A program made the translations under genes and the position numbers. The notes under the pieces were generated by a model. That model ran no database searches. It was not told the DNA's origin and was given only the letters and a program-made list of their open reading frames with translations. Shown here piece after piece: positions 2,839 to 54,040 of a DNA stretch of 64,000 bases. The DNA is taken from assembly GCF_025561425.1 (NCBI RefSeq), contig NZ_CP094824.1:1240001-1304000 (forward strand), read 5' to 3'. The first letter of the stretch is position 1, and the number at the start of each line of letters is the position of its first letter. The stretch comes from Mammaliicoccus sciuri (GTDB lineage Bacteria; Bacillota; Bacilli; Staphylococcales; Staphylococcaceae).

Positions 2839-3708
2839 ATGTTTAAAGACTTGTTCAATCGAAGCCAGAAAAAGAAGAAATATGTAACTGTTCAAAACAG
2901 TAAAGATAATGACGTGCCTGAAGGTATCATGACAAAATGCCCTAAATGTAAAAAAATCATGTATACGAAAGAGCTCGTACAAAACCTAAATGTCTGTTTT
3001 AACTGTGATCATCATATTGCATTAACTGCTCACGATAGAATTAGAGCTGTGAGTGATGAAGATGCATTTAAAGAGTTTGATGTTGGTATGACTGCTTCAA
3101 ACCCATTAGAATTTCCTGGATATGAAGAAAAATTAGAAAAAGATAGAAAAAGCACTGGTTTAAATGATGCAGTTGTTACAGGTGTAACGTCAATTGACGG
3201 TATTCCTTATGGTATCTGTGTTATGGATTCTAGATTTAGAATGGGAAGTATGGGTGCAGTAGTTGGAGAGAAAATTTGTAGAATTGTCGATTATTGTGCA
3301 GATCATAATTTACCATTTGTATTATTCACAGCAAGTGGTGGTGCAAGAATGCAAGAAGGCATCATCTCACTTATGCAAATGGCGAAGACAAGTGTATCTA
3401 TTAAACGTCATAGTGATAAAGGCTTACTATTCATTTCATATATGACACACCCTACAACTGGAGGCGTTTCAGCAAGCTTTGCTTCTGTAGGTGATTTAAA
3501 CTTTGCAGAACCGAAAGCTTTGATTGGATTTGCAGGTAGAAGAATCATTGAACAAACGATTAGTGAAAAACTACCTGACGATTTCCAAACGGCAGAATTT
3601 TTATTAGAACATGGCCAATTAGATAAAGTTGTACATCGAAAAGATATGTATAAAACTTTAAGTACTGTGCTTAAGATGCATCATAACGAGGTGAAAGACA
3701 ATGCTTGA
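2839..3708 (+). CDS. accD: Acetyl-CoA carboxylase carboxyltransferase subunit beta
   Basis: Beta half of the carboxyltransferase that transfers carboxyl from carboxybiotin to acetyl-CoA, making malonyl-CoA, the first step of fatty-acid synthesis. The 289-residue protein has the typical N-terminal four-cysteine zinc ribbon (CPKCKK near residue 34, then CFNCDHH near 55) and a crotonase-like core with GGARMQEG and the [13 protein letters not shown] stretch. Ribosome site AGGGGG precedes ATG 2839. Its last 8 nt overlap the start of accA, which suggests translational coupling giving equal amounts of the two subunits. Confidence 0.97.
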
Positions 3709-50301: not shown

Positions 50302-50338
50302 ATTGTAAATTTTCGGTTATTATATTTACAATAATTTT
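50302..50338 (+). terminator. Weak terminator after the small membrane protein gene
   Basis: ATTGTAAAT pairs with ATTTACAAT, followed by AATTTTT; the stem is A/T-rich. Confidence 0.5.
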
Positions 50339-50387
50339 TGAAAAGGCTATCATTAATTTAAATTTACGAGAGAGGAGGTAGTGACTT

Positions 50388-50465
50388 ATGAGAAACATCA
50401 GAAGAAGATTTTATAAACAAACAACATCATACATCACTACCCCTACGTTAAATATGAAGCATTAG
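50388..50465 (+). CDS. 25-residue leader peptide of the ABC exporter operon (BmrB-like)
   Basis: A short ORF (MRNIRRRFYKQTTSYITTPT and five more residues) with an outstanding ribosome site, GAGGAGGT, 7-8 nt before ATG. It ends at TAG 50465, 35 nt before a terminator hairpin, which in turn lies 33 nt before the exporter gene. This is the arrangement of B. subtilis bmrB, whose translation controls attenuation of the bmrCD multidrug exporter: drug-stalled ribosomes on the leader free an antiterminator. The peptide sequence does not need to be conserved in such systems. Assignment is inference from layout. Confidence 0.7.
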   Translation: MRNIRRRFYKQTTSYITTPTLNMKH

Positions 50466-50500
50466 GGAATAGTATATTCACTTCCTTTAGAATGTAATTT

Positions 50501-50536
50501 AAGCACACGCTTTCTTTAAGGATGCGTGTGCTTTTT
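50501..50536 (+). terminator. Attenuator hairpin before the ABC exporter
   Basis: AAGCACACGC (50501-50510) pairs with GCGTGTGCTT, followed by T run. TTCCTT at about 50482 can pair with AAGGA at 50518-50522 next to the 3' arm, a possible competing antiterminator. Confidence 0.88.
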
Positions 50537-50569
50537 TGTGTTTAATGATAGGGGTCAAGGGGGGACAAC

Positions 50570-52309
50570 ATGTTTCAAGCAATTAAAAAGTTAATGTGGT
50601 TTTTTAAAGATCATTGGAAGAGATATACGATTGCAATTATTCTTTTACTTATTGCAAATGTTATTGAAGTATTGCCACCTTGGATAGTAGGGCAAACTAT
50701 AGATAAGATAAGTGACTGTTCTTTAACTGAACAAATATATCATCAATTAGTAATTATATTTATAATTGTATTAATTTTAGCTTATATCGTGAATTATATT
50801 TGGAGAACTTTAAATTTTTCAGGTTCTCAAATACTTGAATCAATTATGAGACGTAAATTGATGCAAAAATTTTTATCAATGAGTCCAACATTTTTTGAGA
50901 AAAATCGAACTGGAGATTTGATGGCAAAGTCTACAAACGATTTGAATCAAATTAGAAATACTGCAGGGATAGGGATTTTAACTTTAATTGATTCTACGAC
51001 ATTTATGGGAACGATTATATTAACAATGGGTATTACAGTGTCATGGAAACTTACTTTATGTGCACTAATTCCATTACCGTTACTAGCCATATTAGAAATT
51101 GAATTAGGTAAAAGAATCCATAAACGATATTTAATATCACAAAAATCATTTGGTGATATGAATGACACTGTTCTTGAGTCAATTGAAGGTGTTCGTGTTA
51201 CGAGAGCGTATGTACAAGAAGATAAACTCAACAAAGATTTTAAAAATATGACTGAAAGTGTCGTAGAAAAATTTATGAATGTTGAAAAGATGGATGCATT
51301 TTTTCAGCCAATAACGATTATTATAACGGCCATGAGTCAAGTTATTGGAATAGGTTATGGAGCTTTTCTCGTTAACAGTGGAGAAATGACAATTGGTGGA
51401 CTGATTTCATTTACCGTATATTTAAATATGCTTGTATGGCCAATGTTTTCAGTTGGTATTTTGATTAATATTATGCAAAGAGGAAATGCGTCTATAGATC
51501 GTGTTGAAGAAACGTTAAATGAAGCGGAAACTGTACTAGATGTAGAAAATAATGGCATGTCTTCACATGATATTGGTATGAATTCTGTTGTGTTTAAATA
51601 TCCATCAAGTGAATCTATTAACTTAAACAACATCAATATCATACTAGGTAAAGGTGAAACTTTAGGTATTGTCGGCGCAACTGGTTCTGGTAAGACGACG
51701 TTAATCAAACAAATTTTGAAAGAATATCCTACTGGTGATGGAGAAATCGTACTTGGAGATACTAATATTAATCAAATTTCAAAAAGTGATTTAAGAAGTT
51801 TAATTGGTTATGTATCTCAAGAGAACATTTTATTCTCTAGATCTATTAGAGATAATATTAGATTTGGAAAATCGGATGCTACTGATAATGAAATCGAAGA
51901 AGCGATCAAATTAGCATACTTTGAAAAAGATATCGAACGTTTACCACAAGGATTGGAAACCTTAGTAGGAGAAAAAGGTATAGCTATTTCTGGAGGTCAA
52001 AAGCAAAGAATAGCGATTGCTAGAGCATTGATTATGGATCCTAAAATATTAATTTTAGACGATGCACTATCTGCTGTTGATGCAAAAACCGAAAAGAAAA
52101 TTATTCAAAATATACAAAAATATAGACAAGGTAAAACAACCATTATTGCGACACATCGATTATCAGGTGTGAAACATGCAAATCAAATTGTTGTAATGGA
52201 TCATGGAGAAATCACAGAGTCAGGTACGCATGACAAATTACTCCAAATGAATGGTTGGTACAAATCTCAATTTGAAAGACAACGGTTGAAGGAGGTGTAT
52301 AGCAAGTGA
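50570..52309 (+). CDS. ABC exporter half-transporter, BmrC-like (degenerate catalytic site)
   Basis: A 579-residue ABC half-exporter with a six-helix membrane domain (about 15-310), and an ATPase domain with Walker A GATGSGKTT, signature SGGQKQR and Walker B ILILDDALSAVD. The residue after the Walker B aspartate is Asp, not the catalytic Glu, as in B. subtilis BmrC (YheI) and other heterodimeric exporters where this half forms a non-hydrolysing site. It would need its partner (the next gene) for ATP hydrolysis. GGGGGA lies just before ATG 50570. Probable role is drug efflux, by family; substrate is not shown. Confidence 0.85.
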   Translation: MFQAIKKLMWFFKDHWKRYTIAIILLLIANVIEVLPPWIVGQTIDKISDCSLTEQIYHQLVIIFIIVLILAYIVNYIWRTLNFSGSQILESIMRRKLMQKFLSMSPTFFEKNRTGDLMAKSTNDLNQIRNTAGIGILTLIDSTTFMGTIILTMGITVSWKLTLCALIPLPLLAILEIELGKRIHKRYLISQKSFGDMNDTVLESIEGVRVTRAYVQEDKLNKDFKNMTESVVEKFMNVEKMDAFFQPITIIITAMSQVIGIGYGAFLVNSGEMTIGGLISFTVYLNMLVWPMFSVGILINIMQRGNASIDRVEETLNEAETVLDVENNGMSSHDIGMNSVVFKYPSSESINLNNINIILGKGETLGIVGATGSGKTTLIKQILKEYPTGDGEIVLGDTNINQISKSDLRSLIGYVSQENILFSRSIRDNIRFGKSDATDNEIEEAIKLAYFEKDIERLPQGLETLVGEKGIAISGGQKQRIAIARALIMDPKILILDDALSAVDAKTEKKIIQNIQKYRQGKTTIIATHRLSGVKHANQIVVMDHGEITESGTHDKLLQMNGWYKSQFERQRLKEVYSK

Positions 52310-54040
52310 GTATTGTAAATCAACTCTTTCCATTTGTTAGCAAATATAAGAAAAGATTCATCATTGGTATTGTTATTTTAATTGGAGCAGTGGGGTTTGA
52401 ATTATTAGGTCCATTGGTCGCGATGTATATTATTGATCATTATGTTAAAACATCTGCTTCACAAATCATACAATTACGACCAGTGCTACTATTATTGAGT
52501 TTGTTCTTTGTTGTGTCACTTATTCATGCGATATTAAGTTGTTTTCAAACACTTGTACTGCAACGCGCTGGATCAGATGTTATTAAAGAGTTAAGAATTA
52601 AGCTCTTTGAACACGTTCAAAAGTTACCGATTAAATACTTTGATAATTTACCAGCTGGAAAAGTAGTAGCTAGAATAACGAATGATACACAAATGATACT
52701 CGAACTATTCACTGTTATATTACCAAACTTTATTTCGGCTTTTATCACGATGATAGGTGTCATTATTGCGATATTCTTTATTAATACAAAAATTGGACTC
52801 ATCGCGCTGGTTACAATTCCATTTGTCATGCTTTGGTTGTTGTGGTACAAAAAAAGTAACAGGTAAATACAACTATGTCATTCGTGAAAAAAACAGTGAT
52901 ATGAATGCACTTATCAATGAATCTATAAATGGTATGAATATCATTCAAGCCTTTAAACAAGAAAAAACAAATTATGAATGATTTCGATGAAATGAATCAA
53001 GCATATTTAAACAATTATAAAAAAATCATACAATTTGATTCACTGACAGAACATAACTTGTTAAGTACGATTAGAAGTATTGTGTTTTTAATGTTGATTG
53101 TCGTATTTGGAACACAATTTCTAAATTCTTCAGTCGCAATTTCAGTTGGTACGTTATATATACTTGTAAACTATATCACAAGATTATTTGATCCTTTGTT
53201 TGGCGTATTAAATGTATTGGGACAATTAGAACAAGCAATAGTTTCTTGCGTAAGAGTATTTGAAATGATGAATGTATCTGAAGAAAAGATGCCAGAACAT
53301 AAAATCCAGTTGCCTGAAAAAATAGGAGGTCATGTACATTTTAACAATGTATCGTTTGCTTATAATGAAGGTGAATATGTATTGGAAAATATCAATTTAG
53401 AAGTCGAAAAAGGACAAACAATTGCGTTAGTTGGACATACAGGATCAGGGAAAAGTTCTATCATGAATTTACTATTCAGATTCTATGATCCTACTAATGG
53501 AACAATTGAAATTGATGGTGTACCGACCATTAAGACTGATAAAAGAGATATGCGTAAACATATGGGCATTGTATTACAAGATCCATACTTATATACAGGG
53601 ACTATTTTATCCAACATTACATTAGATGATCCAAAAATAACACGAGAAAAAGCTGTTGAAAGTTTAAATGCTGTAGGTGGAGATAGAGTGTTAGAACACT
53701 TTAAAAAAGTATTGATGAGCCAGTTATTGAAAGAGGTCGAACATTAAGTTCTGGACAACGACAAATCATTTCATTTGCGAGAGCACTTGCATTTGATCCG
53801 GAAATTTTGATTTTAGATGAAGCGACATCAAGTATTGATTCTGAAACAGAAGAAATCATACAAAAAGCAATGACTGTGTTGGCTAAAGGGCGAACATCAT
53901 TTATTATTGCACACCGACTTTCAACGATTAAGAATGCCGATCAAATTATTGTTCTTGACAAAGGTCGCATCATTGAAAAAGGGAATCATGATGAGTTAAT
54001 CAAGTTAGAAGGACAATATTACAACATGTATCAAATATAG
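52306..54040 (+). pseudogene. ABC exporter half-transporter, BmrD-like, with three frameshifts
   Basis: Partner of the preceding gene, starting at GTG 52306 with a 4-nt overlap. Protein similarity continues through three frames. A frame change occurs at an A7 run (52849-52855; six A would keep frame), another at about 52975-52983 (one base too many between TNY and DFDEMNQ), and a third at 53703-53710 (one base missing after AAAAAA). All ATPase motifs persist: GHTGSGKS, LSSGQRQ and [11 protein letters not shown] with the catalytic Glu. So the active-site half of the exporter is lost unless the indels are sequencing errors; two of the three lie at homopolymers. Confidence 0.85.

Follow-up and report, generated by a model that had tools for sequence, protein, structure and literature searches.

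Directly upstream of a bmrC-like exporter gene of Mammaliicoccus sciuri, a short leader region probably acts as a ribosome-sensing transcription attenuator, in which a relay of mutually exclusive RNA pairings would respond to occupancy of the leader's start region and not to the peptide that the leader encodes. The window analysed, meaning the whole stretch of 64,000 nucleotides, is part of a single 2.92 Mb Mammaliicoccus chromosome; all features described lie on its forward (+) strand, and the structural evidence throughout comes from comparison or calculation.

Leader, terminator and exporter genes

The leader open reading frame (ORF) consists of 25 codons plus a stop (50388..50465) and encodes the peptide MRNIRRRFYKQTTSYITTPTLNMKH. 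Its signals were read directly: a strong Shine–Dalgarno sequence (SD) with AGGAGG from 50373, an ATG at 50388 and a TAG stop codon at 50463-50465. The duplex of this SD with the 16S tail was calculated at -17.5 kcal/mol. A likely promoter, TTTACA-17-TATCAT (50325..50353), was recognised by pattern scan and alignment as a consensus match only, with TTGACA and TATSAT-like boxes aligned at the same position in three congeners.

Between the leader start and bmrC, as in bmrB-type leaders, lies an intrinsic terminator, T2 (50501..50537), with a hairpin of -19.0 kcal/mol formed by the arms AAGCACACGC (50501-50510) and GCGTGTGCTT (50524-50533) and followed by a T run (50532-50537). This hairpin was absent from the output of a simple terminator scan, probably because its arms are 13 bases apart and the scan allows loops of no more than 8. 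The region 50366-50545 folds with -48.0 kcal/mol, compared with -30.3 +/- 3.4 in shuffles (z -5.3). Neither a T-box nor a riboswitch was recognised at the locus, where no Rfam family exceeded its gathering score (best 22.3 bits, with 44.3 required).

The exporter SD (50557..50566, from the sequence) precedes an intact bmrC-like half-exporter gene of 579 aa (50570..52309), whose best match among solved structures is YheI/BmrC (E 5e-202; next molecule 4e-141), placing the putative attenuator directly upstream of a BmrC orthologue, as is the case for bmrB. The strong ribosome site, 25-codon ORF, terminator and BmrC-like exporter reported in the initial annotation are therefore all in place. In this assembly, three single-base indels set the partner bmrD-like gene (52306..54040) apart from its relatives. 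These lie in or beside A homopolymers, and intact ORFs of 583-584 codons are found in the four other Mammaliicoccus copies (G003-G006); the interruption may be a sequencing error or real decay.

Pairings between leader segments

Sequence comparison establishes a series of segments with alternative partners. Segment 1, the leader SD region AGGAGGTAGTGA (50373..50384), pairs with segment 2, an anti-SD TCACTACCCCT within the leader codons Ile-Thr-Thr-Pro (50434..50444), which is also the partner of segments 3 and 6. Segment 3, the SD-like TAGGGAATAGT (50463..50473), overlaps the leader stop codon and forms the 5' arm of a hairpin, H1. The H1 3' arm and its flank make up segment 4, the ACTTCCTTTAGAA region (50479..50492), which also pairs with segment 5, the T2 apex TTTCTTTAAGGAT (50511..50523). 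Segment 6, TTTAATGATAGGGGT (50541..50555), is complementary to segment 2 and the codons that follow it.

The 1:2 duplex, in which the SD pairs with its own ORF, has a calculated energy of -19.3 kcal/mol in the window, and none of 200 shuffles was as good. Among 28 ordinary window genes that have a good SD, no such tendency is seen (mean -8.0 kcal/mol, z +0.35). In a set of 85 distinct bmrC leaders, whose ORFs were picked by SD strength alone and not by pairing, 1:2 did better than shuffles at p<=0.05 in 84%, and in each leader segment 1 is an ORF's SD. The letters on both sides covary by genus: GGAGGTAGTG occurs with CACTACC, GGAGGAAAA with TTTTCCTCC, GGCCACG with CGTGGCC, GGAGGTCAC with GTGACCTCC, and GGAGGTATGA with TCATACCT.

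This covariation was quantified in a genus-swap test, in which partner segments were exchanged among genera (SD regions among 18 genera for 1:2) in 5000 permutations; genus labels follow record titles, and some genomes are pooled under Macrococcus. True 1:2 partners gave -18.5 kcal/mol and swapped partners -12.6 (sd 0.6), with 0/5000 permutations as good, and a test of rigid 7-base flanks pointed in the same direction more weakly (1/2000). For 2:3 the values were -14.6 for true and -9.9 for swapped partners (0/5000), while the T2 5' arm, used as control, gave no signal (2037/5000). For segment 4 against the T2 apex +/-5 they were -8.5 and -6.3 (0/5000), with no signal in three control regions (3611-4904/5000); against the T2 loop +/-2 alone the effect was weak (133/5000), the signal emerging with the wider apex. 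The three pairings 1:2, 2:3 and 4:5 thus covary across genera, and, with the final antitermination step in the window weakly supported, the alternative pairings are mutually exclusive in the manner of the terminator, antiterminator and anti-antiterminator predicted for bmrB.

Exceptions were found for 1:2. Metasolibacillus and a few others show no clear pairing, Salinicoccus pairs without a genus-specific excess in the swap test, and shuffling leaves the three Thalassobacillus leaders short of p 0.05. When segment 2 was set against everything downstream, comparison with shuffles mostly gave no significance, probably because shuffles retain the GC-rich composition; the genus-swap test was used instead.

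In the window, the 4:5 duplex joins UUCCU-U-AGAA with UUCU-UU-AAGGA at -7.6 kcal/mol, bearing out an earlier suggestion that TTCCTT (50482) might compete for AAGGA (50518); its energy is -10.4 kcal/mol in G004 and -8.7 in G005. The 2:6 pairing amounts to -22.0 kcal/mol in both the window and G005, a value reached by 0/500 shuffles in either, and is not significant against shuffles in G004 and G006. It can exist only in read-through RNA, where it may re-free the leader SD or tune exporter translation.

Proposed relay and alternative explanations

In the mechanism that we propose, 1:2 and 3:4 would form as long as no ribosome is stalled, leaving the apex segment 5 free, and transcription would end before bmrC. 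A ribosome held at or near the leader start, whether arrested by a drug or queued behind a slow one, would cover segment 1. Segment 2, now free, would capture segment 3 and so release segment 4; if segment 4 then captured the T2 apex before the T2 3' arm is made, RNA polymerase would read into the exporter genes. Starting ribosomes would suffice, as would a queue that forms behind a stall within roughly the first ten codons, with segment 2 starting at codon 16. We infer that the leader is translated, that drugs induce the system and that antitermination proceeds through 4:5, the last being the weakest link of the mechanism in the window.

Dissolution of 3:4 by start occlusion is predicted by folding calculation. 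On occlusion, the probability of H1 fell from 0.58 to 0.03 in the window, from 0.92 to 0.00 in G003 and from 0.98 to 0.00 in the leader L017; the calculation covered ten loci, with L020 as an exception, where a different hairpin was picked by the script. When five Mammaliicoccus sequences are folded to a consensus, H1 contains no pair changed on both sides, and support for this hairpin therefore comes mainly from the comparison across genera. In Bacillaceae with tandem terminators, the first of the two (T1) has segment 3 as its 5' arm, T2 being the second; the Staphylococcaceae counterpart of T1 is the hairpin H1 only, with no T run. Freeing the T1 5' arm before its partner is made was calculated to cost 4.3 kcal/mol, rising to 7.5 when a ribosome sits on the start and standing at 4.2 when it sits on the stop codon (means over all loci).

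For the final step, a transcript of G004 ending just before the T2 3' arm folds into 2:3 together with a duplex of segment 4 and the apex that reaches into the 5' arm. The corresponding window transcript shows 2:3 and the loss of H1, with the apex pairing not in the best fold. Thermodynamically, the last link of the window is weak, since the energy of the terminator prefix with upstream RNA changes from -1.8 to only -2.3 kcal/mol on start occlusion. The finished terminator is always most stable at equilibrium, so antitermination must be kinetic. On these calculations, the first switch in the window appears strongly supported and the last link weakly so. Two further points count against the relay, namely that a terminating ribosome would also cover segment 3 and that bmrD is frameshifted in this assembly.

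A classical antiterminator acting on the 5' arm of T2 was also considered for the window and was rejected. In the window and its congeners, moving the ribosome barely changes the cost of opening this arm.

The initial annotation took the peptide, with its Arg-Arg-Arg, as the sensor. As a classical arrest peptide of the kind known from erm leaders, the Arg-rich start of the nascent chain would act with a drug to stall the ribosome at a defined codon, and such a role would fit both the retention of the ORF and its start in congeners and the opening M-R/K/N-N of several leaders. However, no peptide is conserved across genera, Arg-Arg-Arg is absent from G004-G006, and the residues that do persist (TTP, PP and so on) coincide with segment 2 and are those forced by RNA pairing. 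With its sequence not conserved, the peptide finds no support as sensor, and we regard drug-dependent arrest at a defined codon as unlikely. Nor do the leaders share a run of codons for one amino acid, as a trp-like attenuator would. Translational attenuation, with access to the exporter SD through the 2:6 pairing just upstream as the key switch, would account for the strength of that pairing in the window and G005. Yet a strong terminator stands before the exporter SD. In contrast to sequestration of the ermC type, this SD stays largely open when no ribosome is bound (mean P(unpaired) 0.76), and moving the ribosome alters its access only slightly or in the wrong direction. A key role for this switch is quite improbable, although it may act in addition to the relay.

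Two further schemes make no use of ribosome sensing. The single terminator with a T run in the window would be compatible with a leader ORF that simply encodes a small protein, ahead of an ordinary constitutive terminator, the exporter being transcribed from elsewhere, but three specific covarying pairings link the ORF, the hairpin and the terminator apex, and the layout is kept across genera, leaving this scheme with very little probability. Alternative hairpins before a terminator are also what an attenuator unconnected with ribosomes, be it a ligand riboswitch or one that binds a protein, would present; with no Rfam match near threshold and an ORF's SD as segment 1 in the whole set, this can scarcely be credited. 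Overall, the earlier interpretation is partly supported, having missed the leader's own SD as the first arm of the switch and the five-segment relay that we favour.

Conservation and relation to known attenuators

The closest relative is M. sciuri NCTC 12103, one of whose contigs carries an exporter 98% identical. The exporter was found in 5/8 Mammaliicoccus genomes examined, and its other matches come from 16 genomes in three other genera, Macrococcus and its relatives. The largest other genus group of the family, presumably Staphylococcus, has no BmrC match at E<=1e-190 among the genomes listed, so that calling the element staphylococcal holds at the level of the family but not of the genus. 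Alignment across related genomes, proposed earlier as a check, showed the ORF, its stop position and the T2 hairpin to be kept in all of G003-G006; the G006 contig starts at the leader start codon, placing its promoter and SD outside the comparison. The Mammaliicoccus leader peptides MRNIRRRFYKQTTSYITTPTLNMKH, MRQVRRNIQQLTTSKIITTLKFN, MRNFNQRNLKTTTYNTTPLLNRI and MRNYRQNNKYTISYITTPLFNMSNGI differ, with that of G003 nearly identical to the window. Beyond the genus, an ORF with a strong SD, mostly of 16-42 codons, precedes most Bacillales bmrC homologues examined, and the peptides are unrelated. The same design written in different letters before the exporter across Bacillales suggests that the leader most likely senses stuck ribosomes and not a particular peptide.

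In ermC, a leader ORF with alternating segments 1:2, 2:3 and 3:4 hides the SD of the downstream gene. The window element shares the leader ORF and the alternating segments, but its output is a transcription terminator instead of SD hiding. The ermC scheme is described in the discussion of a study on B. subtilis bmrCD, which is induced by lincomycin, erythromycin and chloramphenicol, but not by kanamycin or gentamicin, via a leader and terminator (PMC4191407). There, translation of the bmrB leader is needed, and a terminator, antiterminator and anti-antiterminator were predicted, the role of the last being called unclear (PMC4191407). The window resembles this system in its orthologous exporter, leader ORF, terminator and three-way alternative pairings; it differs in that bmrB as annotated runs for 53 codons and takes in the terminator (PMC4191407), whereas the window leader ends before it, in that the leader SD is a switch arm, and in the added 4:5 step. 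In B. subtilis vmlR, a ribosome on a three-codon upstream ORF (MIN) blocks the anti-antiterminator and so permits antitermination, which is similar to what a ribosome near the leader start would do here, but that ORF lies inside SL-1 with a single-stranded SD before it (PMC9226507), while the SD in the window is paired with late codons of its ORF. Listeria Rli59, upstream of lmo1652, is described as a permissive responder in the review PMC8079631 (citing Dar 2016), where details of its mechanism are called missing; it is alike, by description only, as an ABC transporter leader with a small ORF that answers several ribosome drugs. The window element probably works through ribosome-mediated attenuation of the bmrB, vmlR and Rli59 kind. 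A literature search, mostly outside subscription journals, found no description of pairing between the SD and its own leader in these systems.

In two near relatives of B. subtilis (BmrC 93 and 90% identical to YheI), the leader with the strong SD is an ATG ORF of 23-26 codons in a frame other than the bmrB-like one, with pairings between its SD and own codons of -20.8 and -22.9 kcal/mol. The bmrB-like frame (GTG, 52 codons) ends 126 bases before bmrC in one relative, close to the arrangement of annotated bmrB, which has 162 bp and ends 119 bp before bmrC (PMC4191407). Its SD is weak, at -5.2 against -15.6 for the strong-SD leader, and the frame is cut short in the second genome. In the published bmrB start mutant, other possible starts and ribosome sites of the 5' UTR had been removed as well (PMC4191407), so this mutant does not distinguish the two frames. 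Near relatives of B. subtilis with this arrangement include L114, in the region between ~301 and 126 bases before bmrC, and likewise L115-L118; the frame matching bmrB is not kept.

We lean slightly towards an order-wide Bacillales class of attenuators, in which occupancy of the leader's own SD would be sensed independently of the peptide and passed through a five-segment relay to the terminator apex; the true leader would then be a frame other than annotated bmrB. If true, a single rule, that any drug parking a ribosome near a start codon throws the switch, would explain how the exporter can respond to ribosome drugs of unrelated chemistry. In bmrB, the anti-antiterminator so far without explanation would gain a role and the annotated frame would be called into question, and the succession of SD, anti-SD in late codons, SD repeat and terminator would offer a recognisable pattern for finding leaders elsewhere.

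Some Bacillaceae loci (e.g. L034, L059 and L077) carry two tandem terminators after the leader, the first with SD-like and anti-SD-like arms. A second mini-ORF of ~16-27 codons, none of which was seen in the window, often ends in ESG or EGG before its stop; it follows the terminators ~90 bases upstream of bmrC in L034, L023, L059, L077, L119, L124 and other Bacillaceae. Elsewhere in the window, a 60-codon ORF with a TTG start at 3263, upstream of the gene from 3701, has an SD region that pairs strongly with its own codons (-20.5 kcal/mol); the pairing may have arisen by chance, or the ORF may belong to a larger gene.
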